DNA of 38,564 nt, taken from the NCBI GenBank assembly GCA_019240655.1, contig JAFAXX010000171.1:1-38564 (forward strand), given 5' to 3'. Source of the DNA: Solirubrobacterales bacterium. GTDB lineage: Bacteria > Actinomycetota > Thermoleophilia > Solirubrobacterales > Solirubrobacteraceae. This document shows positions 5,963-34,675 of the stretch, one piece after another; within the stretch, counting starts at the first letter, position 1; each line of letters starts with the position of its first letter. The position numbers and the translations under genes were made by a program. The notes beneath the pieces were generated by a model, which worked only from the letters and a program-made list of their open reading frames with translations, was not told the DNA's origin and ran no database searches.

Positions 5963-7092
5963 ACTTCGCCCTATCCGACGAGCAACGGTTCCTGCGCGAG
6001 GCGGCTCAGGGAACGCTCTCGCGCTTCAAGACGATCGAGGCCGCGCGCGGGGCGCTCGAGGACGGACCTGCGGCGCTGCCCGACCTGTGGCCGGTGGCGG
6101 TCGACGCCGGGTGGCCGGGGCTGCTGATCGGCGAGGCGCACGGCGGCGCCGGCCTCGGGGTCTTCGAGTCCCTGCTCGTCGCCGAGGAGTGTGGCCGTGT
6201 GCTCGCCTCGGTTCCCCTGCTCGGGCTATGGCCCGCCAGCGCCGTGCTCGACGCCGCCGGCGACGGCGGCGCCCTGGCCGCGGTGGCCGCCGGCGAGCTG
6301 CGGCCGGCCTACGTGCCGGCGCGGCCGCCCGGTGACCTCGACCCGGGCTGGACCGTCGAGCCGCGGGCGGGGACGCGTCGCGCCGAGGCCCCGCGGGCGA
6401 GCGTCGACGGAGACGAGGTCGAGCTCGAAGGGTCGGCGTGTTTCGTGCCCGACGCGCCCGGCGCGGGGCTGCTCGTGGTGGTCGGCGAGTCGCAGGACGG
6501 CCGTCCCGTCGCCGCCGCGCTGGCCGCCGACGCTCCGGGCGTGTCGATCGAGGCGGTGATGCGCTACGACGCCACCCGTTCGCTCGGCCACGTCAGCCTG
6601 GCCTCGGCCCGCGGCCGCCGGCTGGCCGTCCCGCCCGGCGTGCTCGCTGACGCCTGGTATCTGGCGCACGCGCTGATCGCCGCCGAGTCGCTCGGGGCCG
6701 CCGAGACGTGCCTCGAGCTCAGCGTCGCATACGTCAAACAACGGTTCACCTTCGGCCGGGCGATCGGGTCCTACCAGGCGATCAAGCACGAGCTCACCGA
6801 GGTGCTCCGGCAGCTCGAGAACGCGCGCGGTCTGCAGTACTACGCCGGCTGGGCCGGTTCAGATCGACGGGCCGAGTTTCCGCTGGCGGCGAGTGCCGCC
6901 CGCGCCGTGGCGGGGCACGCGCTCGACTTCGCGGCCCGCTCGATGATCAACGTGCACGGCGGCATCGGCGCCACCTGGGAGCACGACGCGCCGCTGTTCT
7001 TCCGGCGGGCGCAGCTGTCCCGGCGACTGCTCGGCGGCACCGAGGACGCCACCGACCGGCTGGCGGAGCGGTCGCTGGCCGAGGTGGCGTAA
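5959..7092 (+). CDS. Acyl-CoA dehydrogenase (second subunit-like partner)
   Basis: This 377-residue acyl-CoA dehydrogenase family protein starts at ATG 5959, which overlaps the previous stop. AAGGAGG at 5942-5948 is a strong RBS. The frame is open further upstream to 5788, but that part is a shadow of the preceding gene. Motifs include FALSDEQRFLREAAQGTL at the N-terminus, RFTFGRAIGSYQAIKHEL and INVHGGIGATWEHDAPLFF near the C-terminus, which are typical of the FadE partner subunits. The middle domain is divergent and Ala/Gly-rich, with a reduced SEPxAGSD-type loop, as in the less conserved member of alpha2beta2 pairs. It probably works with the upstream dehydrogenase; the substrate is unknown. 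Confidence 0.9.
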   Translation: MNFALSDEQRFLREAAQGTLSRFKTIEAARGALEDGPAALPDLWPVAVDAGWPGLLIGEAHGGAGLGVFESLLVAEECGRVLASVPLLGLWPASAVLDAAGDGGALAAVAAGELRPAYVPARPPGDLDPGWTVEPRAGTRRAEAPRASVDGDEVELEGSACFVPDAPGAGLLVVVGESQDGRPVAAALAADAPGVSIEAVMRYDATRSLGHVSLASARGRRLAVPPGVLADAWYLAHALIAAESLGAAETCLELSVAYVKQRFTFGRAIGSYQAIKHELTEVLRQLENARGLQYYAGWAGSDRRAEFPLAASAARAVAGHALDFAARSMINVHGGIGATWEHDAPLFFRRAQLSRRLLGGTEDATDRLAERSLAEVA

Positions 7093-7113
7093 CGCCGTGG
7101 AGGGGAGAGCGCC

Positions 7114-8733
7114 GTGAGCACCACGCAGGTGGGCGACCCGGCCCGGGAGGTGCTGAATCAGCCGGAGCCGCTGCAACCGGTCAACCTGTTCGACGTCGAC
7201 CTCGCCATGAGCGAGGCGCTGGCCCGGGAAGGCGGAGGCTGGGGCGTGGATCGTGCGCGCGAGGCCGGGGCGGTGGCCGGCGGCGCCGAGGCGCTCGAGC
7301 ACGGACGGCGGGCCGAGCGCAACCTGCCGATCCTCCGCACCCACGACCGATTCGGCCGACGGGTCGACGAGGTGGAGCTCGATCCCTCTTGGCACTGGTT
7401 GCTGCGGGGAGCGGTGGAGCGGGAGATCCACTCGCTGCCGTGGCGGGATCCGCGCCGCGGCGCCCACGTTGTCCGCGCCGCGCTGTTCATGCTCTGGAGC
7501 AACGCCAACGACGGCGTCATGTGCCCGGTCTCGATGACCTACGCCGCGGTGCCGGCGTTGCGCGACGGCGCGCCGGAGATCGCCTCGGATTGGGAGCCGC
7601 GCCTGACCCGGCCGGACTACGAGACCGGCGCGCTGGCCGGCATGGCGATGACCGAGCGCCAGGGCGGCTCGGATGTCCGCGCCAACATCTCGCGGGCCGA
7701 GCCGGCGGGCGACGGCCGCTACGAGCTTCACGGCCACAAATGGTTCTGCTCGTATCCGCCCTGCGATGTCTTCCTGGTGCTCGCCCAGGCACCCGGCGGC
7801 CTCTCGTGCTTCTTCGTCGAGCGCGGCCCGGGCATGGAGTTCCAGCGTCTCAAGGACAAGCTCGGCACGCGCTCGCTTCCGTCCTCGGAGGTCGAGTTCC
7901 GGGGAGTCCCCGGCCGCCTGGTGGGAGAGGAGGGGAGGGGCGTGCCGGCGATCATCAGGATGGTCAACCACACCCGCCTGGACTGCCTGCTCGGCTCGAC
8001 CGCGACGCTGCGGCGGGGCACGCTGGAGGCGATCCACCACGCCCGCAGCCGCGTCGCGTTCGGGGCGCGGCTGGTCGAGCAGCCGGTGATGCTCAACGTG
8101 CTGGCCGACCTCGCGCTCGAATCGGAGGCCGCGACCGCGGCCGCGCTGCGGGTGGCGCGCAGCTACGACTCGCCCTCGGAGGCTGGGTTTCGCCGCTTCG
8201 CGACCGCGGTGATGAAGTACTGGGTGTGCAAGCGCGCGCCCGGCCACGCCGCCGAGGCGCTCGAGTGTCTCGGCGGGAATGGCTTCGTCGAGGACTCCGG
8301 GATGCCGTTGCTGTATCGCGACGCGCCGCTCAACTCGATCTGGGAGGGCTCTGGGAACGTGCTCGCCCTCGACGTTCTGCGGGCGATGGTGCGCGAGCCG
8401 AGCGGCCTCCCGGCGTTCATGGCCGAGTGCGAGCTGGCGGCCGGAGCTGACCCGCGCCTCGATGCCCACCTCGAGCGGGTGCGGGCCGACGTGCAGGCGC
8501 TGTTCTCCGGCTCGGGCGACAGGCTGTACCAGAGCCAGTTCGGCGCGCGGCGTATCGTCGGCGGCCTGGCGCTGGCCCTGCAGGGATCGCTGCTCGTCCG
8601 CCACGCCCCGCCGGAGGTCGCCGATGCCTTCTGCGCCGCGCGGCTCGACGGCCACGCGGCCGGCCGGGTGTACGGGACGCTGCCCGCCGGCGTCGCCGCC
8701 CGGCCGATCGTCGAGCGCGCCCACCCGGTATGA
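7114..8733 (+). CDS. AidB-like acyl-CoA dehydrogenase
   Basis: The 539 residues match the long AidB / isovaleryl-CoA-dehydrogenase-like branch, which carries an extra N-terminal domain and a longer C-terminal helix bundle. Landmarks are VCPVSMTYAAVPALR, AMTERQGGSDVRANIS, HGHKWFCSYPPCDVFLVLAQ and LECLGGNGFVEDSGMPLLYR followed by SIWEGSGNV. The Glu in WEG aligns with the catalytic base of classical acyl-CoA dehydrogenases. E. coli AidB binds DNA and protects against alkylation, but most actinobacterial relatives are annotated as acyl-CoA dehydrogenases, and the operon supports a metabolic role. It starts at GTG 7114, preceded by GGAGGGGAG, and overlaps the TetR gene by ATGA at its end. Confidence 0.9.
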   Translation: MSTTQVGDPAREVLNQPEPLQPVNLFDVDLAMSEALAREGGGWGVDRAREAGAVAGGAEALEHGRRAERNLPILRTHDRFGRRVDEVELDPSWHWLLRGAVEREIHSLPWRDPRRGAHVVRAALFMLWSNANDGVMCPVSMTYAAVPALRDGAPEIASDWEPRLTRPDYETGALAGMAMTERQGGSDVRANISRAEPAGDGRYELHGHKWFCSYPPCDVFLVLAQAPGGLSCFFVERGPGMEFQRLKDKLGTRSLPSSEVEFRGVPGRLVGEEGRGVPAIIRMVNHTRLDCLLGSTATLRRGTLEAIHHARSRVAFGARLVEQPVMLNVLADLALESEAATAAALRVARSYDSPSEAGFRRFATAVMKYWVCKRAPGHAAEALECLGGNGFVEDSGMPLLYRDAPLNSIWEGSGNVLALDVLRAMVREPSGLPAFMAECELAAGADPRLDAHLERVRADVQALFSGSGDRLYQSQFGARRIVGGLALALQGSLLVRHAPPEVADAFCAARLDGHAAGRVYGTLPAGVAARPIVERAHPV

Positions 8734-10214: not shown

Positions 10215-10320
10215 GCGCGGCGCGCCGTCAGACCAGACCGGGCGCGCGGCGCGCCGTTAGACCAGACCGGTACGGACCGGTGCGCGCGCGGCGCGCCGTC
10301 AGACCAGACCGGTGCGGACC
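10215..10320. repeat. Three copies of the 3' end of the response-regulator gene
   Basis: A 27-bp unit (GCGCGGCGCGCCGT(C/T)AGACC...) occurs at 10215-10241, 10244-10270 and 10286-10312. Copies 2 and 3 share a longer 36-bp stretch that includes GGTRCGGACC. Copy 3 contains the last codons and the stop of the minus-strand response regulator (GLV-stop); copies 1 and 2 lie in its 3' flank and repeat the same codons and stop. Each unit contains the 8-bp palindrome GGCGCGCC, so the transcript can form a row of small GC hairpins between the convergent genes. Confidence 0.9.
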
Positions 10321-10940
10321 GCCCGCACCGCGGCCTGAAGGCGGTTTTCGACCTGGAGCTTGATCAGGATGCTCGAGACGTGGTTCTTCACCGTGTGCTG
10401 GCTCAGATACAGCGCCTCGCCGATCGCGGCATTGTCGAGCCCGCGACACAGAAGCGCGAGCACCTCGAGCTCACGCGGCGTCATTCCCTCGCTCCAGTGG
10501 ATCGGCTCGATGTGCGCGGGCTCGCGCAGACGGGTGACCAGCCGGCTCGCGACGCGCGGGGAGATCAGCGACTCCCCGCGGGCGGCGGCCCGCACGCCTT
10601 CGGTGATCTGATCTATCGGAGCGTCCTTGACGAGGTACCCGCATGCGCCCGCCAGGAGCGCATTCATGACGTACTCGTCGTCGGTCATCATGGTCAGGAC
10701 GACCACGCGGGCCAGCGGCGCGGCGGTGGTGAGCCGCTGGGTGGCCTCGATCCCGGACATGCCCGGCATGTTGAGGTCCATGAGCACGACTCCGGGACCC
10801 ATCCTGGCCGCCAGAGGGATCGCGTCGGCGGCCATGGCCGCCTCGCCGAACACTTCGATGCCACGTTCGGCCAGCAGCCCCGACAGGCCGCGGCGGTACA
10901 GCTCGTGGTCATCCACCACGATGACTTTGACGTCGCCCAA
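10299..10940 (-). CDS. NarL/FixJ-type two-component response regulator (canonical receiver)
   Basis: The 213 residues form a receiver plus a LuxR-type helix-turn-helix. The receiver has all key residues: the acidic pair in VVDDHELYRRG, the phospho-acceptor Asp in VLMDLNMPGMSG, the Thr in VVVLTMMTDD and the Lys in GYLVKDAP. The C-terminal domain reads MTPRELEVLALLCRGLDN...HTVKNHVSSILIKLQ. It starts at TTG 10940, with GGAG and GGGG upstream. There is no kinase beside it; the only sensor kinase in the window is the HisKA_3-type protein at 26513, which belongs to the right class to be its partner, but that pairing is inference. Its 3' end is the source of the repeats at 10215-10320. Confidence 0.92.
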   Translation of the reverse strand: MGDVKVIVVDDHELYRRGLSGLLAERGIEVFGEAAMAADAIPLAARMGPGVVLMDLNMPGMSGIEATQRLTTAAPLARVVVLTMMTDDEYVMNALLAGACGYLVKDAPIDQITEGVRAAARGESLISPRVASRLVTRLREPAHIEPIHWSEGMTPRELEVLALLCRGLDNAAIGEALYLSQHTVKNHVSSILIKLQVENRLQAAVRAVRTGLV

Positions 10941-11068: not shown

Positions 11069-12352
11069 TCACGAATGAGCCACCATCTGGGCCGGCGGGT
11101 CGACGCCGGGCAGGTAGCCCGCCGCACACGGTGAGCTGTCGAACTCCTCGGCGGCCGGCCCCTCTCCGAAGTAGTGCGCGATCGCGGCGACCGACCGCTG
11201 AGCGGCGAGGCCGTCGCCGTAGGGATTGACCGCGTTGGCCATCGCCGCATAGGCATCGGCATCGGTCAGCAGGCGGCCGACCATTGCGGCGATCAGGTCC
11301 TCGTCGGTTCCGACCAGGCGGACGGTGCCCGCGTGCACCGCCTCGGGTCGCTCGGTCGTCTCGCGCATCACCAGCACCGGCTTGCCAAGGCTCGGGCCTT
11401 CCTCCTGGACGCCGCCGCTGTCGGTGAGGATGACCGTGGCCCGGTTCATCAGCCGGGAGAATCCACCGTAGGGCAGCGGCTCGGTCACGGTCACGTTCGC
11501 GAGCCGGCCGATCGCCGGCAGCACCGCATCCCGGACGAGTGGGTTGCGGTGGATCGGGAAGACGATGCGCAGGTCGGGGTGCGAGCGTGCGATCCGGGCC
11601 AGCGCGCGGCCAACCGCGCGCAACGGGGCACCCCAGGACTCGCGCCGGTGTGCGGTGACCAGCAGCACCGGTCCAGGCGCCGCGTCCAGCGCTGCGAGCG
11701 CCGGATCGCCGTAGTCGAGTCGACAGGCGACCGCCCACAGCAGCGCGTCGATGACCGTGTTCCCGGTCACCACCACCGAGCTCGGGTCAACGTTTTCGGC
11801 CAGCAGGTTCGCGCGGCTGGTGGCGGTCGGAGCCAGGTGCAGCGCCGCCAGGCGCGTGGCCAGGCGCCGGTTTATCTCCTCCGGATAGGGCGCGTAGACG
11901 TCCCCGGTGCGCAGGCCGGCCTCGAGATGGAACACCGGGATCTTCTCGTAGAAAGCGGCCAGAGCGGCGGCGAAGACCGTCGTCGTATCACCTTGGACGA
12001 CGACGGCGTCCGGGGCCTGATCTGCCAGCAGCCTCCGCACGCCGGTGAGCGCGCGGGTCGTGATATCGGTGAGCGTCTGGCCGGGCTCGTGGATGTCGAG
12101 GTCGTAGTGGGGCGTGATTCCGAATACCTCATTGACCTGATCGAGCATGCTGCGGTGCTGGGCGGTGACCGCGACCAGCGGCGTGAACAGCGGTGAGTCG
12201 TCCAGGGCCCGGATCAGCGGTGCGACCTTGACCGCCTCCGGTCGTGTTCCGTACACGACCATGATGCGGCGCGGAGGCCCGGGTCTGACCGGCTCGGGCG
12301 CGGCGACCAGGTGGGGCTTCGACGGATTGCGGTGGCGGTCGGCGGCAGGCAT
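11069..12352 (-). CDS. wecB: UDP-N-acetylglucosamine 2-epimerase (non-hydrolysing)
   Basis: This 427-residue cytoplasmic enzyme interconverts UDP-GlcNAc and UDP-ManNAc, a precursor of surface polysaccharides and teichoic-acid linkage units. Motifs are VYGTRPEAVKVAPL at the nucleotide site, GDTTTV with Asp122, FHLEAGLRTGD with Glu144, PEEINRR with Glu158/159 and VTAHRRES with His235. These match the catalytic D95, E117, E131 and H213 of the E. coli enzyme. LTDSGGVQEEGPSLGKPVLVMR binds the UDP end. GAGGAGC, which overlaps the stop of the upstream glycosyltransferase, is a strong RBS five bases before ATG 12352. The two genes are therefore one operon, and the enzyme probably feeds that transferase or its product. 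Confidence 0.95.
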   Translation of the reverse strand: MPAADRHRNPSKPHLVAAPEPVRPGPPRRIMVVYGTRPEAVKVAPLIRALDDSPLFTPLVAVTAQHRSMLDQVNEVFGITPHYDLDIHEPGQTLTDITTRALTGVRRLLADQAPDAVVVQGDTTTVFAAALAAFYEKIPVFHLEAGLRTGDVYAPYPEEINRRLATRLAALHLAPTATSRANLLAENVDPSSVVVTGNTVIDALLWAVACRLDYGDPALAALDAAPGPVLLVTAHRRESWGAPLRAVGRALARIARSHPDLRIVFPIHRNPLVRDAVLPAIGRLANVTVTEPLPYGGFSRLMNRATVILTDSGGVQEEGPSLGKPVLVMRETTERPEAVHAGTVRLVGTDEDLIAAMVGRLLTDADAYAAMANAVNPYGDGLAAQRSVAAIAHYFGEGPAAEEFDSSPCAAGYLPGVDPPAQMVAHS

Positions 12353-12362
12353 TACTTGCTCC

Positions 12363-15300
12363 TCATGGTTTGGGGTTGGCGGCGGCGGCCGACCCGGCGG
12401 GCAGCGCCTGAACGTGGATGTCGTCGAAGCGCGCGACCGAGTCCTCGGCGTAGACGCCGAAGCCGCCGGTCAGATACGGCCGCTCGGTGTCGACGAACTT
12501 GGTCAGCACACGGCCTTCGGCCGAGACCGTGATCTGATTGCCGCTCTGAACCACTCCCACGCGGTGCTCGGCGCCGATCGGGAACTGCGGAAGCTTGCCC
12601 GAGGCCAGGAATCGCTCACCGCCGGGATACGCCGGATCCTGCTTGGAGAGCAGCCAACCGGTCGGTTCGAGCGTCAACGCGTAGAAACGCTGCGGCGAGC
12701 TGTAGTGCCACACCACCCAGCCGACCTCCCACGGGTTGGGGGTACCGGCCGCCCCGTGACGCAGCTGGCGCGTCGTGCGAACCTGCGCGCCGGCGACGAA
12801 GTCCTGATACCAAGTCCGGCTCAGCACCAGGGCCGCGTGCGTCACCCGCGGGGATTGGGTGGTCGCGACCGAGAGGGTGATGGCCTGGCTCGGCCCGGAT
12901 CCGGTGAGCGACGTGTGGCCGTAGCCGCTGAACACCTGATACCAGTCGCTCCGCACGGGGCGGCTGTGGCCGCCGAACGACAGGAGGGCCACCCCGAGCG
13001 CCGCGAAGCCGACCGCGGCCGCCACCGACACCGTGCGGACGGACTTCTGCAACGGCGCACGCCGGCGCCCCGGCGGCCGAGGAGCACCCGAGGGCGAAGG
13101 CGCGGGTGCAGGGATGACGGCGAGGCGTCGATCGCCGTTTTGAGCGAACCGCGCCTGCGAGCTGTCCGGGCCTCGCTCGAGCGCCACCAGCGGAGCCTCA
13201 GCCACCCGATCGGTCTTAGACCAGTTGGTGCGGCGGCGCAGCGTGCGGCCGACCGCCCACCAGCCGGCGGCGTACCACATCAGGCAGTAGCCGACGTACA
13301 GATGGGCGAGCCCCGCAGTGCGGGCCAGCGACATACCGCGGTCGCGCTCGCGCAGCCAGTAGGTGTAGCTGTAGAGCACGGCCGGTCCGAAGGCCAGCGC
13401 GTAGGTCGAGAGCACCCACCAGCCGAGCGGGTTGCCCCCGTCGGCTGCGACGACTCCACTGCCGAGCAGCGAGCAGGCGAACGATGCGGTCAGTAGCGAG
13501 CCGATCAGCAGCAGCGCCGGGCTCGACAGGTGATAGAGGAGATCGACCCGCGCCGGCCGCGGCGCACCGCGCAGGATCCGCGGGATGAGCTTCCACGACT
13601 GCAGGTGGCCCTGGAACCAGCGCGAGCGTTGCCGGATCAGCCTTCGCAGCTCGATCACGCCCTGCTGATGGACAGCCGCCGTGTGGCAGTACTCGTTGCG
13701 CCAGCCCGCGGTGAGCAGGCGGATGCCGAGGTCGAGGTCCTCGGTCAGGCTGCGGGTCCACGGCGCCTCGCCGAGCGAGCGGAGCGCCGAGAGCCGCATG
13801 AACTGGCCGTTTCCACCCAGCCCGACACTGCCGAGATGACGCCGGCCGCGCTGGAAGACCTCGGTGTAGATGACGAACTCCATGTCCTGCATCCGGGCCA
13901 ACCGGCTCATCTCGCGGTTGTTGATGCGGACGCCGATCTGCACCGCGCCCACGGTCGGGTCGGCGAAGTACGGCGCGACCGCCGACAGGCTGTGCGGATC
14001 GACGCGGCCGTCGGCGTCGACGACCACGACGACGATCCGGTCGGGATCGCGACCCTCGAGCCACGAGCTCTCCGACAGCCGGGCGATGGCGGCATTCAGC
14101 GCCTCGCCCTTGCCCTGCCGGGCGTTCGGAGGCGTGCGCTGCATCAGCCGGACGCGCTCGTCCGCCACCCCCCTGACCGCTGCCGCGGTCCCGTCGTCGG
14201 AGCCGTCGTCGATCACCATCACCCCGAAGTTCTCGCCCGGCAACGAGAGCAGGCGCCGAAGGCTGTTGAGGATCACCTTCTCCTCGTTCAGGCACGGCAG
14301 CAGGAAGACGAAGAACAGCTCGTGCGCAGCGGCCGGCGGCGAGGCGCTCGCCATCGGCGCTCGGCGCCGGCGCCGGCGGCCGCGGGGCTCACGCCGCGAG
14401 GCGCCGAGCATCGTCAGTCCGTAGACGATCAGCAGTCCCACCGCGACGAGTGCCGCGATGGCCAGCGGCACCACCGCAGCGGCCCGTGAAGCCGACGCGA
14501 CCGGCGCGAGCGGCGGCGCGGTCGGGTTGGCGGCGGGCAGGGTGGCGACTGCGGTGGCCGTCCCGGCGGGTGTCCGGACGTTGATGCGCGCCTGCGCCGG
14601 CAGCGGGGCCGTGTCGGTGAAGCGCACGTAGTACTGACGGTTCAAGTCGGCACCGATTCGGCGCAGCGCGCCGGGCCAGTCGCCGGCCGTGCGGATGCGG
14701 GTGACGAAGCCGCCGTTTCCGGCGACGAGCGCCGTGTAGGCGGGCGCGCCCGTAGGGGAGGCGTCGAGCAGGTACAGCGAGGTGCCGCTGGCGGCCAGTT
14801 GCCGGCGCAGCCGCGCGCTCGCTGCCGCGCCGAGCGGTTCGTTCGCGCTCAGCACGAGAACCACCGTGCGCCGCACCGAGGCGCCCGGCGAGAACGCCGA
14901 CAGCGCCTCGGTGAGCCGGAGCGCCGCTGGCTCGCGCGGTCCGCGCGCGAGCGCGAGGTCGCTGGTCACCGCCGCGGCGGGATCGCCAGTCAGCTGGCCG
15001 GTGGCGGAGACCGCGGCCTCCGCGCCGGCGGGCAGCCCGGCGAGAAAGCCGGCGCCGGCGGAGCGCTCGAGCCCGAGCTCCGAGCTCCGCACGTGCAGGT
15101 CGGGCGAGAAGACGATCTGCAGATCGCCCGGGGAGAGCTGGCGGACGCTCGGGTGCTGCGACGCGCCCCCGACCTGGACAGTGATGTCCTTGCCGGTCAA
15201 CGGTCGCGAGGCCTGCGGCACGGTGATCACCATCCCGATCTCGGGCCGGCGCGAGACGTCGACCCGGAACGGCATGAGCGCAGTCGACAGTGCGCTCGCC

Positions 15301-15599
15301 GGCGAGGGCACCGGATTCATGGAGGCGTTGGTGGGGGGCCGGGCGGGCGGCGTCGAGCCGCCATGGGGTGCGCTGCTCTGACGTGCACTCGTGTGACGAG
15401 CGCTGGTGTGGCGGGGGGTGCTCTGGCGTGGGCTTCCCTGACGTCGGCCGCTGTGACGCGGGCTGCTCTGGCCGGGGCCGCCGTGGGCCGAGACGGCGGC
15501 CGCCGCCGTGACCGTCGCCAAGGCGGCGATCGCCAGAGCTGCGATCGCTAGAGCGGCGATCGCCAGGATCCCCGCGATCCGTCGGTGAAACCGCCTCAT
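12363..15599 (-). CDS. Membrane glycosyltransferase (GT2) with an N-terminal secreted VWA-like domain and a C-terminal lectin-like domain
   Basis: The protein has 1078 residues. Residues 1-38 are a signal peptide built from IAALA repeats, and 40-105 are Ser/Arg/His-rich low complexity. About 110-330 resemble a VWA fold but lack the DxSxS MIDAS motif. A TM helix spans 373-397. About 427-680 form a family-2 transferase with DDGSDDG (464-470), VDADG (527-531), LTEDLDLG (618-625) and RQRSRWFQGH (656-665; QxxRW), all hallmarks of processive synthases. TM helices follow to about 785, another at 853-876, and 880-1065 look like a concanavalin/LamG or DUF1080-like domain (WEVGWVVWHYSSPQRFYALTLEP...GGFGVYAED). 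The topology places both end domains outside. The long frame extends upstream to 16010, but ATG 15599 overlaps the stop of the small upstream gene (ATGA) and starts the signal peptide. WecB follows in the operon. The sugar is unknown. Confidence 0.88.
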   Translation of the reverse strand: MRRFHRRIAGILAIAALAIAALAIAALATVTAAAAVSAHGGPGQSSPRHSGRRQGSPRQSTPRHTSARHTSARQSSAPHGGSTPPARPPTNASMNPVPSPASALSTALMPFRVDVSRRPEIGMVITVPQASRPLTGKDITVQVGGASQHPSVRQLSPGDLQIVFSPDLHVRSSELGLERSAGAGFLAGLPAGAEAAVSATGQLTGDPAAAVTSDLALARGPREPAALRLTEALSAFSPGASVRRTVVLVLSANEPLGAAASARLRRQLAASGTSLYLLDASPTGAPAYTALVAGNGGFVTRIRTAGDWPGALRRIGADLNRQYYVRFTDTAPLPAQARINVRTPAGTATAVATLPAANPTAPPLAPVASASRAAAVVPLAIAALVAVGLLIVYGLTMLGASRREPRGRRRRRRAPMASASPPAAAHELFFVFLLPCLNEEKVILNSLRRLLSLPGENFGVMVIDDGSDDGTAAAVRGVADERVRLMQRTPPNARQGKGEALNAAIARLSESSWLEGRDPDRIVVVVVDADGRVDPHSLSAVAPYFADPTVGAVQIGVRINNREMSRLARMQDMEFVIYTEVFQRGRRHLGSVGLGGNGQFMRLSALRSLGEAPWTRSLTEDLDLGIRLLTAGWRNEYCHTAAVHQQGVIELRRLIRQRSRWFQGHLQSWKLIPRILRGAPRPARVDLLYHLSSPALLLIGSLLTASFACSLLGSGVVAADGGNPLGWWVLSTYALAFGPAVLYSYTYWLRERDRGMSLARTAGLAHLYVGYCLMWYAAGWWAVGRTLRRRTNWSKTDRVAEAPLVALERGPDSSQARFAQNGDRRLAVIPAPAPSPSGAPRPPGRRRAPLQKSVRTVSVAAAVGFAALGVALLSFGGHSRPVRSDWYQVFSGYGHTSLTGSGPSQAITLSVATTQSPRVTHAALVLSRTWYQDFVAGAQVRTTRQLRHGAAGTPNPWEVGWVVWHYSSPQRFYALTLEPTGWLLSKQDPAYPGGERFLASGKLPQFPIGAEHRVGVVQSGNQITVSAEGRVLTKFVDTERPYLTGGFGVYAEDSVARFDDIHVQALPAGSAAAANPKP

Positions 15600-15796
15600 C
15601 GCGCTCGGCGGCGGTCGTTGAAGCGTCCCACGCTGCCAGCGACGAGCAGCCCGACGACGATCAGGAAATAGAGCGCGAACAGCGCCCCCGCCGCGTCGAG
15701 CAGCACCCAGGCTCCGCTCCAGAAGACCGCCGCGTGGCGAAGCTCGGTCGCCGAGGCGACCATGGTCAAGCTCGCTGGCCCAGCTGAGTAATGCAT
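15596..15796 (-). CDS. Small membrane protein, first gene of the glycosyltransferase operon
   Basis: From ATG 15796 this is a 66-residue protein; an in-frame ATG at 15763 would give 55. Neither has a strong RBS. Residues about 22-53 (AAVFWSGAWVLLDAAGALFALYFLIVVGLLVAGSVG) make one or two membrane helices, followed by a basic tail FNDRRRAR. The stop overlaps the glycosyltransferase ATG, which indicates coupled translation and a partner role, such as the small accessory subunits seen beside other membrane glycan synthases. I do not recognise the family. Confidence 0.6.
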   Translation of the reverse strand: MHYSAGPASLTMVASATELRHAAVFWSGAWVLLDAAGALFALYFLIVVGLLVAGSVGRFNDRRRAR

Positions 15797-16114
15797 AGTT
15801 GCCCCGCGCCCGCCGGCGGTGAGCCGTCCGTGGATTTGGCCGTCTCCGGCGAGCGTTCTGCGTCGTTGGTCGAAATTCGACCGGGCGGAGCGGTCGTTGC
15901 GACCGGGCACGGAGGTGCCAGGTGCGGGTGACCGCGCCAACCCAATCGGCGGAAGCTTGGCAGCCGAGGTGTGACACCTGAAGGGGTCGGCCCGGCGAGT
16001 TTGCGTTCACGCTTGAACATCACCCTGCGATGCCCGAGGTGATGCCGGTGACTCGGGCCTTCGACGGCCTGGTGGAAGGGGTCGGCGTGCCCGGCGGCCG
16101 CTAGATTGGCGGCG
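15797..16114. other. Divergent intergenic region between the glycosyltransferase operon and the secreted hydrolase
   Basis: About 318 bases without a gene. It holds GTTCA-CGCT-TGAAC (16005-16018), a 17-bp inverted repeat arm at 16008-16024 whose partner covers the hydrolase start (16114-16130), and a 12-bp direct repeat GAAGGGGTCGGC at 15980-15991 and 16075-16086. I see no clear sigma70-type -35/-10 pair. Confidence 0.7.
16005..16018. promoter_or_regulatory. Candidate operator GTTCA-CGCT-TGAAC
   Basis: A perfect 5-bp inverted repeat with a 4-bp centre lies in the divergent promoter region of the glycosyltransferase operon and the hydrolase. It shares the GTTCA-N4-TGAAC core of the stronger palindromes in front of the two atypical response regulators (20052-20069 and 36687-36705). 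Confidence 0.35.
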
Positions 16115-16130
16115 GTGAAGTTCAAGCGTG
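16008..16130. repeat. 17-bp inverted repeat spanning the hydrolase start codon
   Basis: The arms are CACGCTTGAACATCACC (16008-16024) and GGTGAAGTTCAAGCGTG (16114-16130). They are complementary at 16 of 17 positions and separated by 89 bases. The right arm contains the GTG start of the hydrolase and its first five codons. If transcription starts upstream of 16008, the arms could pair in the mRNA and hide the start codon. Confidence 0.9.
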
Positions 16131-17101
16131 TTCGTGGCTCGGCCGCAGCCGTGACCTTGGGGGTCGCGGGATTGGCGACACTGGCGCTGAGCGGCCCGGC
16201 CGTTACGTCGAGTATTAAGTCGCAAGCCGCTCCTCCGCCGGCCAGCGCCGTGTCGCCGCAACGACTCCCCGGTCCGCTATACGGGGTCACGGTCGACGGC
16301 ATCGACAACCTCGGTCAGGTGCTCGATGCCCTGCGGGCAATGCCGCAGCGGCCGACCACGCGGATCGTCTTCGACCGTCAGCAGTCGCCCGGGTACTACG
16401 CCTCCGCCGTGGGAGCCATGCACCCGGTTAGTTACGTGATGGGCGAGCTGCTCGACTCCTCCGACGCATCACGGGTCAGCACCACGGCGTTGCGGCGGCG
16501 CGTGGACGCGTATCTCGCGGCACTCGGCGGCCGGATCGACGTCTGGGAGATCGGAAACGAGGTCAACGGAAACTGGCTCGGCCCGTACCCAGAGGTGGAA
16601 GCCAAGCTGGTGACCGCCTACGACGCGGTCTCGGCCGCCCGCCGGCGGACCGCGCTCACGCTCTACTACAACGTCGGCTGCGGCGACGGCGCGAGCGAGC
16701 TCGATCCGCTCAGCTTCAGCCGGCGGTTCGTGCCGGCTCGGGTCCGCGACGGGCTGAACTTCGTCCTGCTGAGCTACTACGAGCAGAACTGTCGCGGGCT
16801 ACGTCCGAGCGCCTCGGCGTGGACAAGTTACTTCGCCGCGCTGCACCGGCTGTATCCGAACGCGAGGCTTGGCTTCGGCGAGGTCGGGTTGACCGAACCG
16901 GCACGCTGGTCCACCCTGGGCTACGCAGAGGGAATGATCCGCTATTACTACGGGCTGGCGATCCGCCTGCCGTACTACGTCGGCGGTTACTTCTGGTGGT
17001 ACTGCGACGAGGACTGCGTGCCTTACCGCTCCGCGCCGCTGTTTGCCGCGGTGCGCCGCGCGTTGCGCTCCGAGGCCGCAACTCTGCGCCCCGAACGGTG
17101 A
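16115..17101 (+). CDS. Secreted glycoside hydrolase-like TIM-barrel protein (clan GH-A type)
   Basis: This 328-residue protein has a signal peptide (KFKRVRGSAAAVTLGVAGLA to about residue 42). The body looks like a clan GH-A beta/alpha barrel: DVWEIGNEVNGNW puts Glu149 in the NE acid/base position after strand 4, and LGFGEVGLTE puts Glu256 as candidate nucleophile after strand 7. It should act outside the cell on a polysaccharide, probably the product of a neighbouring synthase; I cannot name the GH family or substrate. GTG 16115 fits best (MKFKRV, basic signal-peptide start); TTG 16106 is an alternative. The start codon lies inside one arm of a long inverted repeat. It is divergent from the glycosyltransferase-wecB operon. 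Confidence 0.75.
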   Translation: MKFKRVRGSAAAVTLGVAGLATLALSGPAVTSSIKSQAAPPPASAVSPQRLPGPLYGVTVDGIDNLGQVLDALRAMPQRPTTRIVFDRQQSPGYYASAVGAMHPVSYVMGELLDSSDASRVSTTALRRRVDAYLAALGGRIDVWEIGNEVNGNWLGPYPEVEAKLVTAYDAVSAARRRTALTLYYNVGCGDGASELDPLSFSRRFVPARVRDGLNFVLLSYYEQNCRGLRPSASAWTSYFAALHRLYPNARLGFGEVGLTEPARWSTLGYAEGMIRYYYGLAIRLPYYVGGYFWWYCDEDCVPYRSAPLFAAVRRALRSEAATLRPER

Positions 17102-17586: not shown

Positions 17587-19917
17587 TCAGCCCCCGGTTA
17601 CGGTGGGATCAGTTGGTCCGACGAATGTGTAGCCGAGGTTCTTGATCCCGGTCACGATCGTCTGGAGATTGGCCAGCGGGTTGTCGTTAGCGTCGTAGAA
17701 GAAGCTCGCGAAACCCTGCCGGACGGCGAGGTTCACCTTCGCCTCGTTGATGATGTCGGACTCCACTCGCGGCGGATTGCCGTTCTGGGCCGTGGGCTCG
17801 TAGTCACCCAGGTTCTCCGGGAGGATTTCCTCGCCGTACGCGTCGTGAACCACGTAGGGGAAGAACTGCCCGAAGGTGTGGCTGTAGTCGAGCGCGGCGC
17901 CCGGCGTGATCAGTCCGCTCGGGAACGTCTCGCGCTCGTAACGGACTGGGAACTGGCTGTCGATGGCCGCGTAGTCGGGGGCCGAGGCGAAGTAGTGCGG
18001 CGTGATCCACACCGACGGCACCGTCAGCCCCGCCTGCTGGAACAGAGCTTTCCCGGTGGTGACCCGCTCGGTCGCCCAGGCCTGTGAGTCTCCGTCGACC
18101 GGGCCCGTCCAAACGACGTAGTCGGTGGTCGGGCACGGGCTGGTTGCCGTGACGGTCACCGGCGTCGCTGTGTTTTGTGTGCTGGAGCACACCGCCTTGT
18201 AGAACTCCGCGTCATCGCCGCTGATCCCGGTGTACGGGTTCGGGACGTTGGAGTACTGGTGGGTGTAGCCCTCCTCGTTCAGCGTCCCGCCTTTGGACTC
18301 GATGTACTTGAGGGCGGCGACGACCCCGGGCTCGTCCGCGAGCGTCTTGGTGCACGGCGCTCCCGCCGGGATTCCCGCGCAGGCCGCGACGTTGGCGTTG
18401 TCGACCCCCAGCGGGTCGGTGTACTCCGGGATCACGTTGACGCTGAACGGCACGTTCTGCGAAGCCATGTAGTCCGCAAACGACTGCAGCGTGGCGGGGT
18501 TGGAGGCCGGCGAAACGTCCTCGAGCCGGACCATCGCCTGGTGCGACGGCGTCGCCGACGGATCGAGGGCATCGAACAGCAGGTCCGAGAAGATCAGGTA
18601 ACGATCGGTCTCGGAAATGTACGAGAACGGGTCCTCGCCGACGTAGGTCAGGTTGGACGACCGGATCGCCCACGGGAACGTCGATCCGACGCTGGCGCCC
18701 GGTGCCTGCGAGGCGCAGTTGGCGGGCGGCGTAGCGGTGCTGCAGTTGGCCTCCGCCAGCACCTTCACGGTCGCCGAGTTAGTGATGTGCGGCTGGAGCA
18801 TCTGGCCGGTGCCATTCAGGGCGTTCCGGGTGAACGTCTGGCCGTTGTAGGTGACCGTGGTCGGGTTGTCCAGTGTGTCGAAGTAGGACGAGGACGGGTC
18901 CCAGCCGTACTTGGCGATGAAGGCGGAGTTCGCGCTGCCGCCCGCGGTCCCGGACAGCTGCCAGATGTTTTGTCCCGCCCAGATCACCGGGTGGCTGGTG
19001 GCGAGCACGTCGTTCAGGAATGCGGTCGGGATCGGCTCGTTGTACGTCGAGCCGACGTAGACGGTCGCGGTGTACTGGTCGATCTGGCCGGACTGGTAGT
19101 CCGCGACCGGCTCGGCGGTGATCTTGCCGAAGTGGGTGGCCAGGTTGCCCGCGGCGATGGCGTCGAGCTCGCCGATCCAGCCGTACTGGCCGGTGGTGTC
19201 GTAGACGACCAGCGTGGTCGCCTTGCCGCTCGCACCCCACGTCTTAGCCTGGGGAGGTGTGACCGGCGTCGGCGTCGGAGTGGTCGTCGTGGGGGTTGGC
19301 GTGGTCGTGGTGGTAGTCGGTGTCGTCGGGCTCGGGCTCGGGCTCGGAGTCGGATTCGTGTAGTGGGGCGGCGGCGCCGGCACCTTCGGCGCCGCGGGCG
19401 GCGCCGGAATCGGCTTGTTGGCGACCGGAGGCGTGGGCGTCTTCGGCGCGCTCGTCAGCTTGAACCTCAGCGTGTGGCGCGCGGAGTTGCGTCTCGCATT
19501 CTGGGCCACCACGGTGGCGAGGTACTGACCCGCCGGCAACCCGGCGAGGGTCACCTTGAAGTGGTTCTTGCCGCGAGCGCCCTGGTAGACGTGCATCGCG
19601 ACCTGGACGGTGACGCTGCACGGCTTGCCCTTACCGGGCCGCGTCTGACAACGGCCGTGCGCTCGGTGGCCTGCCAGTGTGCGTCCAATCGCCACGGTGA
19701 CCCGGGCCCGGCCTGACAGCGTCATGTTCAGAGTGCGGGTGACGCCCGACCCGGAGAGGTTCAGATGCGTGATCACGGGCGGCGCGGGATGCTTGGCCGC
19801 GACCGAAGCCGAGGGCCACAGCAGCGCTGACGGCGCGAGCGCGGCGAGCGCGAGAAGCGCGCGGACGCACCCGGTTCGCGTCGCGGACCCGCGAAACGAG
19901 GAGAGAAAACTGCCCAC
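17587..19917 (-). CDS. Secreted DUF2334 protein (polysaccharide-deacetylase-like)
   Basis: From GTG 19917 the protein has 776 residues. That start is set by AGGAAGG, six bases upstream, and by a clean signal peptide directly after it (MGSFLSS...LLALAALAPSALLWPSASVAA); the frame is open further up, with an ATG at 19974. Residues about 45-165 are a beta-sandwich-like domain, followed by a Pro/Thr/Ser linker with TTTTTTPTPTTTTPTPTP. The catalytic-like part carries MVRLEDVSPASNPATLQSF (the DUF2334 RxxDV signature), FSVNVIPEYTDP, LNEEGYTHQYSN and WITPHYFAS, in the NodB/carbohydrate-deacetylase fold. Action on an extracellular amino-sugar polymer is inferred and would fit GlmS and WecB nearby. It is divergent from the regulator-glmS operon. 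Confidence 0.85.
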   Translation of the reverse strand: MGSFLSSFRGSATRTGCVRALLALAALAPSALLWPSASVAAKHPAPPVITHLNLSGSGVTRTLNMTLSGRARVTVAIGRTLAGHRAHGRCQTRPGKGKPCSVTVQVAMHVYQGARGKNHFKVTLAGLPAGQYLATVVAQNARRNSARHTLRFKLTSAPKTPTPPVANKPIPAPPAAPKVPAPPPHYTNPTPSPSPSPTTPTTTTTTPTPTTTTPTPTPVTPPQAKTWGASGKATTLVVYDTTGQYGWIGELDAIAAGNLATHFGKITAEPVADYQSGQIDQYTATVYVGSTYNEPIPTAFLNDVLATSHPVIWAGQNIWQLSGTAGGSANSAFIAKYGWDPSSSYFDTLDNPTTVTYNGQTFTRNALNGTGQMLQPHITNSATVKVLAEANCSTATPPANCASQAPGASVGSTFPWAIRSSNLTYVGEDPFSYISETDRYLIFSDLLFDALDPSATPSHQAMVRLEDVSPASNPATLQSFADYMASQNVPFSVNVIPEYTDPLGVDNANVAACAGIPAGAPCTKTLADEPGVVAALKYIESKGGTLNEEGYTHQYSNVPNPYTGISGDDAEFYKAVCSSTQNTATPVTVTATSPCPTTDYVVWTGPVDGDSQAWATERVTTGKALFQQAGLTVPSVWITPHYFASAPDYAAIDSQFPVRYERETFPSGLITPGAALDYSHTFGQFFPYVVHDAYGEEILPENLGDYEPTAQNGNPPRVESDIINEAKVNLAVRQGFASFFYDANDNPLANLQTIVTGIKNLGYTFVGPTDPTVTGG

Positions 19918-20209: not shown

Positions 20210-20962
20210 ATGGAACAGTTGAGCGTGCTCCTGGCCGATGACCACGTGCCCGCACGGGTGGGCATCCGGCAGGCGATTGAGCCTCACGGACTGCGCGTCG
20301 TCGCCGAGGCGGCCAGCGCGGCAGAGGCAGTTCACCGAGCGCTGGAGTCCCGGCCACAGGTCGCCGTGGTGGCGGTCGCCATGGCCGGCAGCGGCATCGA
20401 GGCGGCGCGTCTGATCTTCCGTGCCTTGCCGGAGACGAAGATCGTGATGACGACCACCTCCGTGTGCGAGGACGAGTTCTTTGCCGCACTCAGAGCCGGC
20501 GCCGAGGGATATGTGCCGATGAGCACCTCCGCCGCGCGGCTGCCCTACGCCATCCGCGGAGTAGTGGCCGGCGAGGCGGCCATCCCCCGGACCCTGACCG
20601 CTCGCCTGATCGGGGAGTTCCGTGAGCGGGGTACGCCGCGGCGTCTGGCCCTGCCGGCCGGCGGCGAGGCGAAGCTGACCGCACGCGAGTTCGAGGTCCT
20701 CGCCCGGATGCGCCAGCACGAGCGCACCGCGCAGATCGCCGCTCGCTTGGGGATCTCGGAGGTGACCGTACGGCGGCACGTGTCCTCGGCGGTGCAGAAG
20801 CTGGGGACGCGCAGCCGCCGAGAGGCGATCGAGCTGATCGAGCGGACCGAACAGGCGGAGCTACAGGCCGGCGCGCCGGCCAACGATGTGATCAACCCAC
20901 GTAGCCAGGCTGAACAGCAAGGAAAGGAAGTTCACGGATGTGCGGAATCATCGGCTATGTAG
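20210..20962 (+). CDS. Atypical NarL-type response regulator lacking the phospho-acceptor Asp
   Basis: The protein has 250 residues with a receiver (about 1-120) and a LuxR-type HTH (about 155-220: LTAREFEVLARMRQHERT...ISEVTVRRHVSSAVQKLG). The acidic pair D10-D11 is kept, but the phospho-acceptor is Ala55 (VAVVAVAMAGSG where VLLDVRMPG is usual) and the conserved Lys is Met104 (GYVPMSTS for GYLVKDA). It therefore should not be phosphorylated in the normal way. The end overlaps glmS by 25 bases on the same strand, so the two are one operon. A pair of palindromes lies about 120-160 bases upstream. The 3' tail beyond the HTH is unstructured. A role in controlling amino-sugar or envelope synthesis is inferred from context. 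Confidence 0.9.
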   Translation: MEQLSVLLADDHVPARVGIRQAIEPHGLRVVAEAASAAEAVHRALESRPQVAVVAVAMAGSGIEAARLIFRALPETKIVMTTTSVCEDEFFAALRAGAEGYVPMSTSAARLPYAIRGVVAGEAAIPRTLTARLIGEFRERGTPRRLALPAGGEAKLTAREFEVLARMRQHERTAQIAARLGISEVTVRRHVSSAVQKLGTRSRREAIELIERTEQAELQAGAPANDVINPRSQAEQQGKEVHGCAESSAM

Positions 20963-22788
20963 GCGGCCGGCCCTGTCAGCGGCTGCTCCTCGATGGCCTG
21001 AGGAAACTGGAGTACCGGGGCTACGACTCCGCCGGGATGGCCTGGCGTGAAGGTGAGATGGCGCGGTGCATCAGGGCGGTAGGAAACCTCGACTCGCTCG
21101 AGTCGGTGCTCGCCTGCGCAGTTGGTGATGGCGGTGTGGCGACGGCGACGGCAACCGTCTCGGCCGGCATCGCGCACACGCGGTGGGCCACCCACGGAGG
21201 AGTAACCGAGATCAACGCACATCCGCACGAGGACGCCAGCGGCCGCTTCCGCATCGTCCTCAACGGGATCATCGAGAACCACCTGGAACTGCGCGACCGT
21301 CTCGCCGCCGACCTGGTCACGCTCCGCTCGGACACCGACGCCGAAGTGGTGGCGCATCTTCTGGCGCTGCACTATGACGGCAACCTGGCCGAAGCCGTCC
21401 GCCGCTCGCTCGATGAGCTCGAAGGCCATTACGCGCTGGTGGCGATGTGCGACGAGGAGCCCGACACCTTGGTCGGGGTCCGGCGCGAGTGCCCTCTCGT
21501 CGTCGGCCTCGGCGACGGCGAGCAGTTCATCGCCTCTTCGATCTCCGCTTTCCTCGCCCACACGCGCGAGGCGGCGGTGCTGAGCGACGAGGAGATCGCT
21601 GTGCTGCGGCCCCACGAAGTCGAGGTGTTTGACGTCAAGGGGCTTCGACACCGGCCGGCTTCGACGCAGGTTGAGTGGGATGAGGATCGCTGCGAGAAGG
21701 ACGGCTTTGAGACGTTCATGCTCAAGGAGATCCACGAGCAGGGCAGCGCGGTGCGGGAGACGCTCTCTCAGTGGCGCGCCAATCCTGAGCTGAGTGAGGA
21801 CGGCGCGCTCGCCGCCGAGCGCCTGGCTGCGGTCAAGCGAATCGTCATCGTGGCGTGCGGCACCTCGTACCACGCCGGCCTGGCCGCGCGGAACGCGATC
21901 GAGCGATGGGCTCGGATTCCGGTCGAGGTCGAGGTGGCCTCCGAGTTTCGCTATCGAGAGCCGATCGTCGCGGACGGCGCCCTGGTGCTGGGAATCTCGC
22001 AATCCGGCGAGACTGCCGACACCCTGGCCGCCATGCGTCTCGCCAAGGCGCAGGGGGCTACCGTGCTGGCGGTTACCAATACTCCCGCGAGCCAGGCGAC
22101 CCGCGAGGCCGATGGAGTGCTTTTCACCCGGGCCGGGCTCGAGATCGGCGTCGCCGCGACCAAGACCTTCGTCGCTCAGGTGGTGCTGCTATACGAGCTC
22201 GCGCTCCGGCTCGCCGCCGTAACCGGAGCGCAGTCGCCCGCCACGATGGCCGAGCTGCACGATCAGCTCGAGCAGCTCCCGCAGCTGATCGACCAGGTGC
22301 TGAGCTCGGTGGATGAGCCGATCCGTGGGCTCGCCGGGCGCCTGGCGCTCAGCCCCTTCTTCCTCTACCTCGGCCGGCTGGCCGGGCTGCCAGTCGCGCT
22401 CGAAGGCGCGCTCAAGCTCAAGGAGATCTCCTACGTGCCAACCGACGCCTACGCGGCCGGTGAGATGAAGCATGGCCCGATTGCCCTGCTCAGCCGGGAG
22501 ACGCCCGTGATCTGCGTGGCCACCGATGAGCGCGTGCTCCCGAAGCTGCTCTCGAACCTGTCCGAGGTCAGGGCCCGGGGCGCCCGGGTCCTGGCAATCG
22601 CCACGGAAGGCTCGAGGGAGATCGCCGAGCACGCCGAACACGTCGTCTACATCCCGCGCGCCGACCCGCTCATGCAGTGCGTGCTGGCGATCGTGCCGCT
22701 GCAGCTTTTCGCATATCACCTCGCGCGAGCCCGCGGCCTCAACGTAGATCAGCCTCGGAACCTGGCCAAGACCGTCACCGTCGAGTAG
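20938..22788 (+). CDS. glmS: Glutamine-fructose-6-phosphate aminotransferase (isomerising)
   Basis: This 616-residue protein makes glucosamine-6-phosphate from fructose-6-phosphate and glutamine, the first step to UDP-GlcNAc. The class II amidotransferase domain starts MCGIIGYVGG with the Cys nucleophile after Met removal, and has LEYRGYDSAGMAW and HTRWATHGGVTEINAHPH. Two SIS domains follow (ACGTSYHAGLAARNAIE; ISQSGETADTLAAMRLAK; TKTFVAQV), with KEISYVPTDAYAAGEMKHGP and the C-terminal DQPRNLAKTVTVE that closes the active site. AAGGAAAGGAAG lies just upstream of ATG 20938. It is cotranscribed with the upstream atypical regulator and followed by a degenerate nucleotidyltransferase. It is a likely feeder for the glycan machinery; whether it is the only copy in the genome cannot be told. 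Confidence 0.97.
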   Translation: MCGIIGYVGGRPCQRLLLDGLRKLEYRGYDSAGMAWREGEMARCIRAVGNLDSLESVLACAVGDGGVATATATVSAGIAHTRWATHGGVTEINAHPHEDASGRFRIVLNGIIENHLELRDRLAADLVTLRSDTDAEVVAHLLALHYDGNLAEAVRRSLDELEGHYALVAMCDEEPDTLVGVRRECPLVVGLGDGEQFIASSISAFLAHTREAAVLSDEEIAVLRPHEVEVFDVKGLRHRPASTQVEWDEDRCEKDGFETFMLKEIHEQGSAVRETLSQWRANPELSEDGALAAERLAAVKRIVIVACGTSYHAGLAARNAIERWARIPVEVEVASEFRYREPIVADGALVLGISQSGETADTLAAMRLAKAQGATVLAVTNTPASQATREADGVLFTRAGLEIGVAATKTFVAQVVLLYELALRLAAVTGAQSPATMAELHDQLEQLPQLIDQVLSSVDEPIRGLAGRLALSPFFLYLGRLAGLPVALEGALKLKEISYVPTDAYAAGEMKHGPIALLSRETPVICVATDERVLPKLLSNLSEVRARGARVLAIATEGSREIAEHAEHVVYIPRADPLMQCVLAIVPLQLFAYHLARARGLNVDQPRNLAKTVTVE

Positions 22789-30485: not shown

Positions 30486-32606
30486 TTGAAAGCGTGGCGG
30501 GCGGGCGCTTTTGCGTCCCCAATCCCAGTCAGAACCCGAAGGCCGACCTTGCCAGAGATCCCGAACCCTCGGCGACGGCTCCGCGGAAGCGCTCGCCTGC
30601 GCGCGACGCCCACCGGACCGGAGGCCGACCCCGGCCGCGACGCGGCCGCTCCGGTTCTGCGGACATATCGACAGAGCTGGTCTCAGGGCCGTGCTGGGAA
30701 TTTCCGTGAGGACGCGGAGGGGACGCTTTCGCCCTTCCCGTGGCCACCTGGGGCCCGCAACGACGGCAGCGAGCAGCCGCCGAGCATCGGCGGGCGCCCG
30801 GGTTCGGGCGGCGAGCAACTTTTGCTCGCGCCGGAGCCGGAGCAGGCCGCCTACGACTACGAGCGGTACGCGCAGCTCACCGGGCCGCTGATCGAGCCGC
30901 TGTCGGCCGAGGCCCCCGTCCGATATCAGCGGCTTCCCGATGCCCGCCCCCGGCGACACCTGCTCGGCGCGATAGCGGTTCTGCTGATCCAGTCCGCCTT
31001 CCTGGTGTGGCTGCTGCTTCCAAGCCACCTTCCGCTGCACAACTCGTCACCGGTGCTCGCGGTGGCGTCGATCGTGATGCTCACCTCGATCTATCTGATT
31101 GAGGTGTTTCGGCTGTTGAACGTGACCAGCCTCTGCCTGGCGTCAGCTCTGGCGAGGGACCCGGTGCCGATGGTGCCGCTGCGCGGCACCCGCGTCGCCT
31201 TCCTGACCACGATCGTGCCGTCCAAGGAGCCGATTTCGGTCGTCGAACCGACACTACGCGCGGCGCTGGAAGTGCGCCACGCCGGCACGCTCGACGTTTG
31301 GCTGCTCGACGAGGGCAACGATCCGGCGGTTCGGAGAATCTGCGCCGGACTCGGGGTTCGCCACTTCAGCCGGCACGGCATCAAGCGCTGGAACCAGCCC
31401 GATGGGCGGTACAAGGCGCGGACGAAGCACGGCAACTACAACGCATGGATCGACTGCTACGGGGACGGATACGACTTCTTCGTCTCGGTCGACCCTGACC
31501 ACGTTCCGCTCCCGAGCTTCTGCGAGCGGCTGCTGGGCTACTTCCGCGATCCCGAGGTTGCCTTCGTGGTCGGCCCCCAGGTCTACGGGAATTACGACAA
31601 CTTCGTGACTAAGTGCGCCGAATCTCAGCAGTTCGTATTCCACGGCCTGATCCAGCGCATGGGCAACTACTTCCGCTGCCCCATGTTGGTCGGCACCAAC
31701 AACGCGGTACGGATAGCCGCGCTCAAGGACATCGGCGGCTTGCGAGACAGCATTACGGAGGATCTGGCCACCAGTCTGGTCTGTCATTCGACGCGCAACC
31801 CGCGCACGCGCCGATCGTGGCGGTCGGTGTACACGCCGGACGTGCTGGCGATCGGGGAGGGGCCGGCGAACTTCACGGACTTCTTCAGCCAGCAGCACCG
31901 GTGGAGCCGGGGGACGTTCGAGAACCTGCGCGGCCATTTCTGGCACTCCCTCCGCTCACTCTCGCGCGGCGCGCGGCTTCACTACTCGCTCATCACGTCT
32001 TACTACCCGACCGCTGCGATCGGATGGATCTTAGGTGCGGTCAACTGCATGCTCTACCTGCTGCTGGGGGCCTCGGGCATACGCGTGCAGCCGCATATCT
32101 GGATCGCGGTATACGTCGACCTCGCCATGGTCCAGTTCTCCCTCTACGCCTCCAATCGCAAGCACAACGTCTCGCCGCACGAGTCGAGCGGCTCCTCCGG
32201 CGTCGCCGGCATGTTCATCTCCGTGCTCGCCGCTCCGATCTACGTGGTCGCCCTAATCGGCACGCTCGTCCGGACCGGGAGCAGCTTCGTGGTCACGCCC
32301 AAAGGTGCTTCCCGATCGGTCGACCGGCTGGCGACGTTCCGCTGGCACCTGGGCTGGGGCGCGGTGCTGGCAATGGCGCTCGGTGCCTCGCTGTGGATGA
32401 ACCACCCGCAATCAAGCATGCGGCTGTGGTCCCTGACTCTGATCGCGGTTTGCCTCACGCCGCTCACCATTACGCTGACCTCGCGGGCGCTCTTGCGACG
32501 GCGAACCGCTCCGGCGCGCGAGACGGCCGCGAAAGTCACGCCGGTGGCGAGCCGAGGCCGCAGTCGCGACCACGGATTCGCCAGGGCTGCCGAAGACGCG
32601 AGATGA
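30486..32606 (+). CDS. cslA: Cellulose synthase-like glycosyltransferase (CslA type)
   Basis: The protein has 706 residues from TTG 30486. The first 120 are low-complexity and Pro/Arg-rich, so an internal start such as TTG near 30822 is possible. Two TM helices (about 158-178 and 187-210) precede the cytoplasmic GT2 domain: LLDEGND (273-279), SVDPDH with the DxD (334-339), SITEDLATS (422-430) and FSQQHRWSRG with QxxRW (467-476). At least five TM helices follow. QQHRW and the adjacent GlxA gene identify it with Streptomyces CslA, a membrane synthase of a beta-glucan at growing cell poles that works with GlxA. UDP-glucose or UDP-GlcNAc is the likely donor. The stop overlaps the GlxA ATG (ATGA), so translation is coupled. 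Confidence 0.9.
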   Translation: MKAWRAGAFASPIPVRTRRPTLPEIPNPRRRLRGSARLRATPTGPEADPGRDAAAPVLRTYRQSWSQGRAGNFREDAEGTLSPFPWPPGARNDGSEQPPSIGGRPGSGGEQLLLAPEPEQAAYDYERYAQLTGPLIEPLSAEAPVRYQRLPDARPRRHLLGAIAVLLIQSAFLVWLLLPSHLPLHNSSPVLAVASIVMLTSIYLIEVFRLLNVTSLCLASALARDPVPMVPLRGTRVAFLTTIVPSKEPISVVEPTLRAALEVRHAGTLDVWLLDEGNDPAVRRICAGLGVRHFSRHGIKRWNQPDGRYKARTKHGNYNAWIDCYGDGYDFFVSVDPDHVPLPSFCERLLGYFRDPEVAFVVGPQVYGNYDNFVTKCAESQQFVFHGLIQRMGNYFRCPMLVGTNNAVRIAALKDIGGLRDSITEDLATSLVCHSTRNPRTRRSWRSVYTPDVLAIGEGPANFTDFFSQQHRWSRGTFENLRGHFWHSLRSLSRGARLHYSLITSYYPTAAIGWILGAVNCMLYLLLGASGIRVQPHIWIAVYVDLAMVQFSLYASNRKHNVSPHESSGSSGVAGMFISVLAAPIYVVALIGTLVRTGSSFVVTPKGASRSVDRLATFRWHLGWGAVLAMALGASLWMNHPQSSMRLWSLTLIAVCLTPLTITLTSRALLRRRTAPARETAAKVTPVASRGRSRDHGFARAAEDAR

Positions 32607-34552: not shown

Positions 34553-34582
34553 CTGCTGGCCGAACGGAAAGCTCTCCCGTCA

Positions 34583-34603
34583 CCGGCGGGTGCGGATCGC
34601 CGG
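34583..34603. terminator. Possible bidirectional hairpin between convergent glxA and GH6 genes
   Basis: CCGGCG (34583-34588) and CGCCGG (34598-34603) form a 6-bp stem with a 9-base loop in the 123-bp gap between the convergent genes. There is no T-run, as is common in high-GC actinobacteria, so termination is a guess. Confidence 0.3.
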
Positions 34604-34675
34604 ACCTATAGCCACGCTGCGTGCCCGACATCGAAGCCCGGGCGCAACGTGTCGCATGAGTTGTGCCGCAGTCCC

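Follow-up and report, generated by a model that had tools for sequence, protein, structure and literature searches.

The BcsA-BcsB cellulose synthase and its fused AcsAB form have an exported partner joined to the synthase, an arrangement resembled by the polypeptide chain analyzed here. However, no sequence similarity was seen between their exported domains and those encoded in the window, by which we mean the whole stretch of DNA analyzed (38,564 nucleotides of contig JAFAXX010000171.1 from a Solirubrobacterales bacterium). The PgaC/IcaA poly-N-acetylglucosamine (PNAG) synthases likewise consist of a GT2 with membrane helices, and have a small membrane partner and a deacetylase and hydrolase alongside. 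The window GT2 is 29% identical to E. coli PgaC over 237 aa, and the window differs from these systems in having a linked wecB and extra exported domains.

In the E. coli Nfr system (NfrB, NfrA, WecB; NGR glycan) NfrB and WecB are proposed to make a ManNAc polymer, and the linkage of nfrB to wecB was taken as evidence for the substrate (PMC8669469; PMC8669472). The window shares with this system a processive GT2, WecB-made UDP-ManNAc as proposed substrate, and a wecB gene genetically linked to the GT2 gene. NfrB differs by its MshEN domain and its partner in the outer membrane, and the two GT2 sequences hardly match. The nfr cluster of A. xylosoxidans holds a BcsB homologue (PMC8669472). The Agd3/CE18 operons resemble the window in being bacterial exopolysaccharide operons with a metal-dependent deacetylase (PMC7229062). 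They are described there with a cytoplasmic glycosyltransferase, a multispanning membrane protein and often GH114, whereas the window combines a GT2 synthase with wecB and a PF06439-like protein; the two are set apart by description and may overlap.

We regard the window chain as a probable fused version of a synthase-dependent exopolysaccharide system. It belongs to an operon (GT2, PF06439-like protein, WecB, DUF2334 and GH) of which no description was found in the literature searched, mostly outside subscription journals.

The proposed fused synthase chain

The genes and domains considered are listed below (L003 is a homologous locus in another bacterium).

11069..12352 (-): wecB, non-hydrolysing UDP-GlcNAc 2-epimerase, 10 bp after the synthase gene (TIGR00236)
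12405..12947 (-): extracytoplasmic concanavalin/PF06439-like C-terminal domain, residues 885-1065 (matches of homologues)
12963..13046 (-): extra TM helix after the linker, which starts the separate gene in relatives (hydropathy, gene layout of relatives)
13215..13547 (-): C-terminal membrane-helix bundle of the synthase, residues 685-795 (hydropathy, comparison with relatives)
13590..14312 (-): GT2 catalytic core with DDG, DADG, TED and QRSRW (Pfam, NCBIfam, motifs)
14400..14480 (-): TM helix leading into the GT2 (hydropathy)
14490..15314 (-): extracytoplasmic N-domain, residues 96-370 (45% identity to L003)
15489..15599 (-): signal-peptide-like segment, residues 1-37 (hydropathy; similar segment in L003)
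15596..15796 (-): small membrane protein, 66 aa, beginning MHYSAG, first operon gene, stop overlapping the GT2 start
16106..17101 (+): secreted clan-GH-A-like glycosidase with WEIGNE and GEVG, divergently placed (motif, loci of relatives)
17587..19917 (-): secreted DUF2334 polysaccharide-deacetylase-like protein, start uncertain (up to 20031) (PF10096, 5e-42)

Positions 12363-15599 of the minus strand form a single uninterrupted frame of 1078 aa, in the order signal peptide, secreted N-domain, TM helix, processive-type GT2 core, further helices and secreted C-terminal domain. The original prediction of a three-part chain that begins with a signal peptide and has a TM helix before the C-terminal domain agrees with this frame and with hydropathy, by which a signal-peptide-like segment was placed at residues 8-26 and TM stretches at 374-392, from 685 and, ahead of the C-terminal domain, at 857-875. 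The ATG start overlaps the stop of the upstream 66-aa gene (ATGA). The same coupling, with GTGA, was found at this junction in L003 (N-terminus VRRPHR compared to MRRFHR in the window), and both observations support the start. The linker between the GT2 and the C-terminal domain contains neither a stop nor an ATG; barring a sequencing indel, the fusion therefore stands.

The GT2 core was matched by Pfam at residues 432-737 (1e-25). Its motifs DDG (464), DADG (528), TED (619) and QRSRW (657) bear out the predicted processive-type core with QxxRW, and the marks of a processive GT2 polysaccharide synthase were found both in these motifs (DDG/DxD, TED and Q..RW) and in the membrane helices around the core (hydropathy). 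The best NCBIfam match was the XrtP-associated glycosyltransferase model (NF053846; 284.9 bits, residues 422-801). This score lies under the curated cutoff of 520 bits, and the window GT2 was not assigned to that family. Nor was it assigned to PgaC/IcaA (TIGR03937), the next best model, with 78.6 bits vs. a curated cutoff of 422. Orthology to NfrB was also rejected, E. coli NfrB giving a BLAST match of only E 0.014 over 73 residues. Among the three parts, constraint was strongest in the GT2 (pN/pS 0.37), intermediate in the C-terminal domain (0.58) and weakest in the N-domain (0.83).

The operon and its homologues in other bacteria

Nineteen loci were found in a scan of prokaryote genomes and a further one in a search of plasmids. 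The search patterns contained pieces of all three parts of the chain, and a match to the C-terminal domain was enough for a locus to be picked up; two such loci, L020 and L021, showed no GT2 and were left out of the counts. The 18 loci with a homologous GT2 (L003-L019 and L022) came from oral Actinomyces, Peptidiphaga, Frankia, Geodermatophilaceae and a Streptomyces plasmid. Many are from Actinomyces and hence not independent. The genes of the Actinomycetota loci are homologous to those of the window and in the same order, with GT2 cores 37-73% identical to that of the window. They differ from the window in that the C-terminal domain has its own gene, the N-domain occurs in L003 only, and the deacetylase is intact where checked.

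wecB was present in all 18 loci; in L005 it is divergent, and in L018 it lies upstream. Of the 17 loci L003-L019, all but L018 (16) have DUF2334, and L022 has an annotated polysaccharide deacetylase. A GH-A-like gene was present in 12 of the same 17. Similar small membrane proteins starting with MHYS are encoded directly upstream of the GT2 in L004, L006-L011, L013-L015 and L019; that of L003 lacks MHYS, and none was found in L005. The operon had been predicted to add a small membrane protein and WecB to the synthase, and both are there, WecB scoring 460 bits against the TIGR00236 equivalog model (curated cutoff 210). The prediction had not noted the genes for a deacetylase and a hydrolase, nor that the operon is conserved and that relatives encode the C-terminal domain in a gene of its own.

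The C-terminal domain is a separate protein in all 18 other GT2-holding loci. Its gene adjoins that of the GT2 in 17 of them, the exception being L022, where wecB lies in between. In L003 the N-domain is fused to the GT2 while the C-terminal domain has its own gene; two fusions therefore lie behind the window chain. In the tree, window and L003 group together with 96/95 support. Judged by gene layout, the window chain is a fusion of operon partners that keeps the predicted membrane topology, which suggests that the GT2 and the exported concanavalin-like protein work together.

The DUF2334 protein of the window lacks the HxxxH motif and the C-terminal catalytic His expected of an active CE18-like deacetylase. 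The first His of HxxxH is replaced by Glu (EGYTH) and the C-terminal FFHP stretch, with its catalytic His, by FYDAN, while nine aligned relatives with DUF2334 keep both catalytic His. We assign roles to these motifs after Agd3 (PMC7229062). Agd3 (CE18) was not returned when solved structures were searched with the deacetylase profile, and the searches with the deacetylase and hydrolase profiles gave weak matches only. Since two catalytic positions are lost, the polymer of the window may stay acetylated.

Near the DUF2334 gene lies glmS (window 20938-22788; 740 bits vs. a cutoff of 418), and L004 has a GlmS-isomerase-like SIS protein (6615-7691) beside the homologous operon. Supply of amino sugars is a possible role for these genes.

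The exported end domains

The C-terminal domain of the window had no Pfam match of its own, and a search of solved structures with its profile gave weak matches only. Among 15 aligned homologues, eight matched PF06439 (best 4.9e-10; three of those listed scored above the gathering score) and a few matched laminin-G families weakly. These matches make a lectin-like or concanavalin label reasonable as a description of the fold, and the predicted concanavalin/LamG-like domain is thus supported through relatives. In L021, from a Peregrinibacteria assembly, the C-terminal domain family is joined to three S-layer homology domains (7257-8489), which suggests surface binding by this family.

The N-domain is known only from the window and L003. 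The original prediction had called it VWA-like. No VWA or other relevant family was found in it in Pfam and NCBIfam at E<=10. hhalign against seven VWA proteins gave 0.2%, and pairwise z-scores against VWA, computed with shuffled sequences (-0.8 to 2.4), overlapped those of non-VWA controls (-0.6 to 3.7), compared to 11 to 23 between VWA pairs. The tblastn search of plasmids gave no backing for the assignment either. The VWA label is therefore not upheld, by comparisons that all rest on only two N-domain sequences and are hence weak tests, the hhalign one included. The order of strand-like and helix-like segments, judged by eye, could be compatible with VWA and serves as a lead only. The N-domain was not found among 12 same-genus and 8 same-order genomes, several of them incomplete assemblies; this fits a recent gain or a wide loss.

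The place of the N-domain is that of a 615-aa exported protein encoded just upstream of the GT2 in L018 (6130-7977, between wecB and the GT2), which has a C-terminal helix. This protein may be read as BcsB-like by its GFERFPQVL stretch, a motif judged by eye, while a Pfam scan gave no match. DUF2334 and VWA were both rejected as identities for it.

Proposed function and competing explanations

We consider the window chain to be a single-chain, membrane-embedded exopolysaccharide synthase that uses WecB-made UDP-ManNAc and whose C-terminal domain holds the emerging chain (probability roughly 0.55). WecB would make UDP-ManNAc, which the cytoplasmic GT2 would use as donor, adding sugars processively and threading the chain through its own membrane channel. 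Topology places the C-terminal domain at the exit side, where we infer that it binds the emerging chain, either retaining it on the surface or handing it over to the secreted deacetylase and hydrolase. Sitting in the slot of the BcsB-like protein of L018, the N-domain would perhaps be another module that contacts the chain or serves assembly; the small membrane protein may act as a PgaD-like partner. UDP-ManNAc is proposed because the GT2 is genetically linked to wecB, the same argument as was used for NfrB (PMC8669469; PMC8669472). An earlier suspicion of ManNAc is strengthened by the presence of wecB in all 18 other loci, and the gene set around the synthase probably makes an N-acetylmannosamine-type surface polymer. 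It is most likely that the chain makes, exports and holds such a polymer, the sugar and the holding being what we infer. The original prediction had one chain coupling synthesis, guiding and holding: synthesis and holding fit the topology and the operon, while a guiding role for the N-domain could be read from no more than its position. Weighing against the synthase reading are the distance of the GT2 from NfrB and the reading of the L018 protein as BcsB-like by a motif where Pfam gave nothing; WecB could also serve another glycan.

It is doubtful that the product is instead GlcNAc-type (PNAG-like) or mixed GlcNAc/ManNAc, with WecB linked for another wall glycan or a minor sugar. PgaC/IcaA is the next best family after the XrtP-associated model (79 bits), the deacetylase and hydrolase of the locus match the functions of PgaB, and glmS is in the same window. 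However, PNAG does not need the epimerase, and every locus with the GT2 also has wecB, even the rearranged L005, L018 and L022. The C-terminal domain could be an enzyme, since the PF06439 members with known function are hydrolases, including a 3-ketotrehalose hydrolase and an endo-xanthanase/lichenase (PMC9007349), and hydrolases are frequent in synthase loci. That it is a hydrolase or lyase which trims or releases the chain, and not a lectin, is nevertheless unlikely given the separate GH-A-like hydrolase in 12 of 17 loci and the S-layer homology domains of the L021 protein, neither of which is decisive.

Two further explanations are both improbable. An indel might have joined the genes of the GT2 and the C-terminal domain during assembly; these are separate in all relatives, the linker (residues 800-840) shows a weak GC3 signal for the frame, and the genome is a 191-contig assembly. 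Yet the two domains share a frame that neither a stop nor an ATG interrupts between them, and genes overlapping by ATGA, as in L003, are in different frames, so that the indel must also have removed a start and a stop. Alternatively, the cassette may be decaying in the window lineage and yield little or no polymer, as the two lost deacetylase positions and the failure to find the N-domain in the 12 same-genus and 8 same-order genomes might indicate; against this, the GT2 keeps its motifs and is under stronger constraint than the other two parts.

The synthase reading can be extended, tentatively and at less than even odds, to the Actinomycetota. An undescribed operon, present also in common mouth Actinomyces, would make a partly deacetylated poly-N-acetylmannosamine surface polymer, and the window synthase would have taken in the chain-binding partner and a new exported domain, with its deacetylase now non-catalytic and possibly polymer-binding. 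The fusion offers a testable list of components for what seems to be an undescribed surface polymer of Actinomycetota, including culturable oral Actinomyces, and the constant link to wecB makes the sugar identity of this polymer directly testable.

The glycan genes of the window are flanked by two LuxR-type response regulators (10299-10940 and 20210-20962). About 11 kb from the DUF2334 gene, positions 30822-35539 hold a cellulose-synthase-like GT2, a GlxA radical copper oxidase (NF052501, 821.5 bits, cutoff 800) and a GH6 gene, a group which resembles the cslA-glxA-cslZ tip-glucan locus of Streptomyces.
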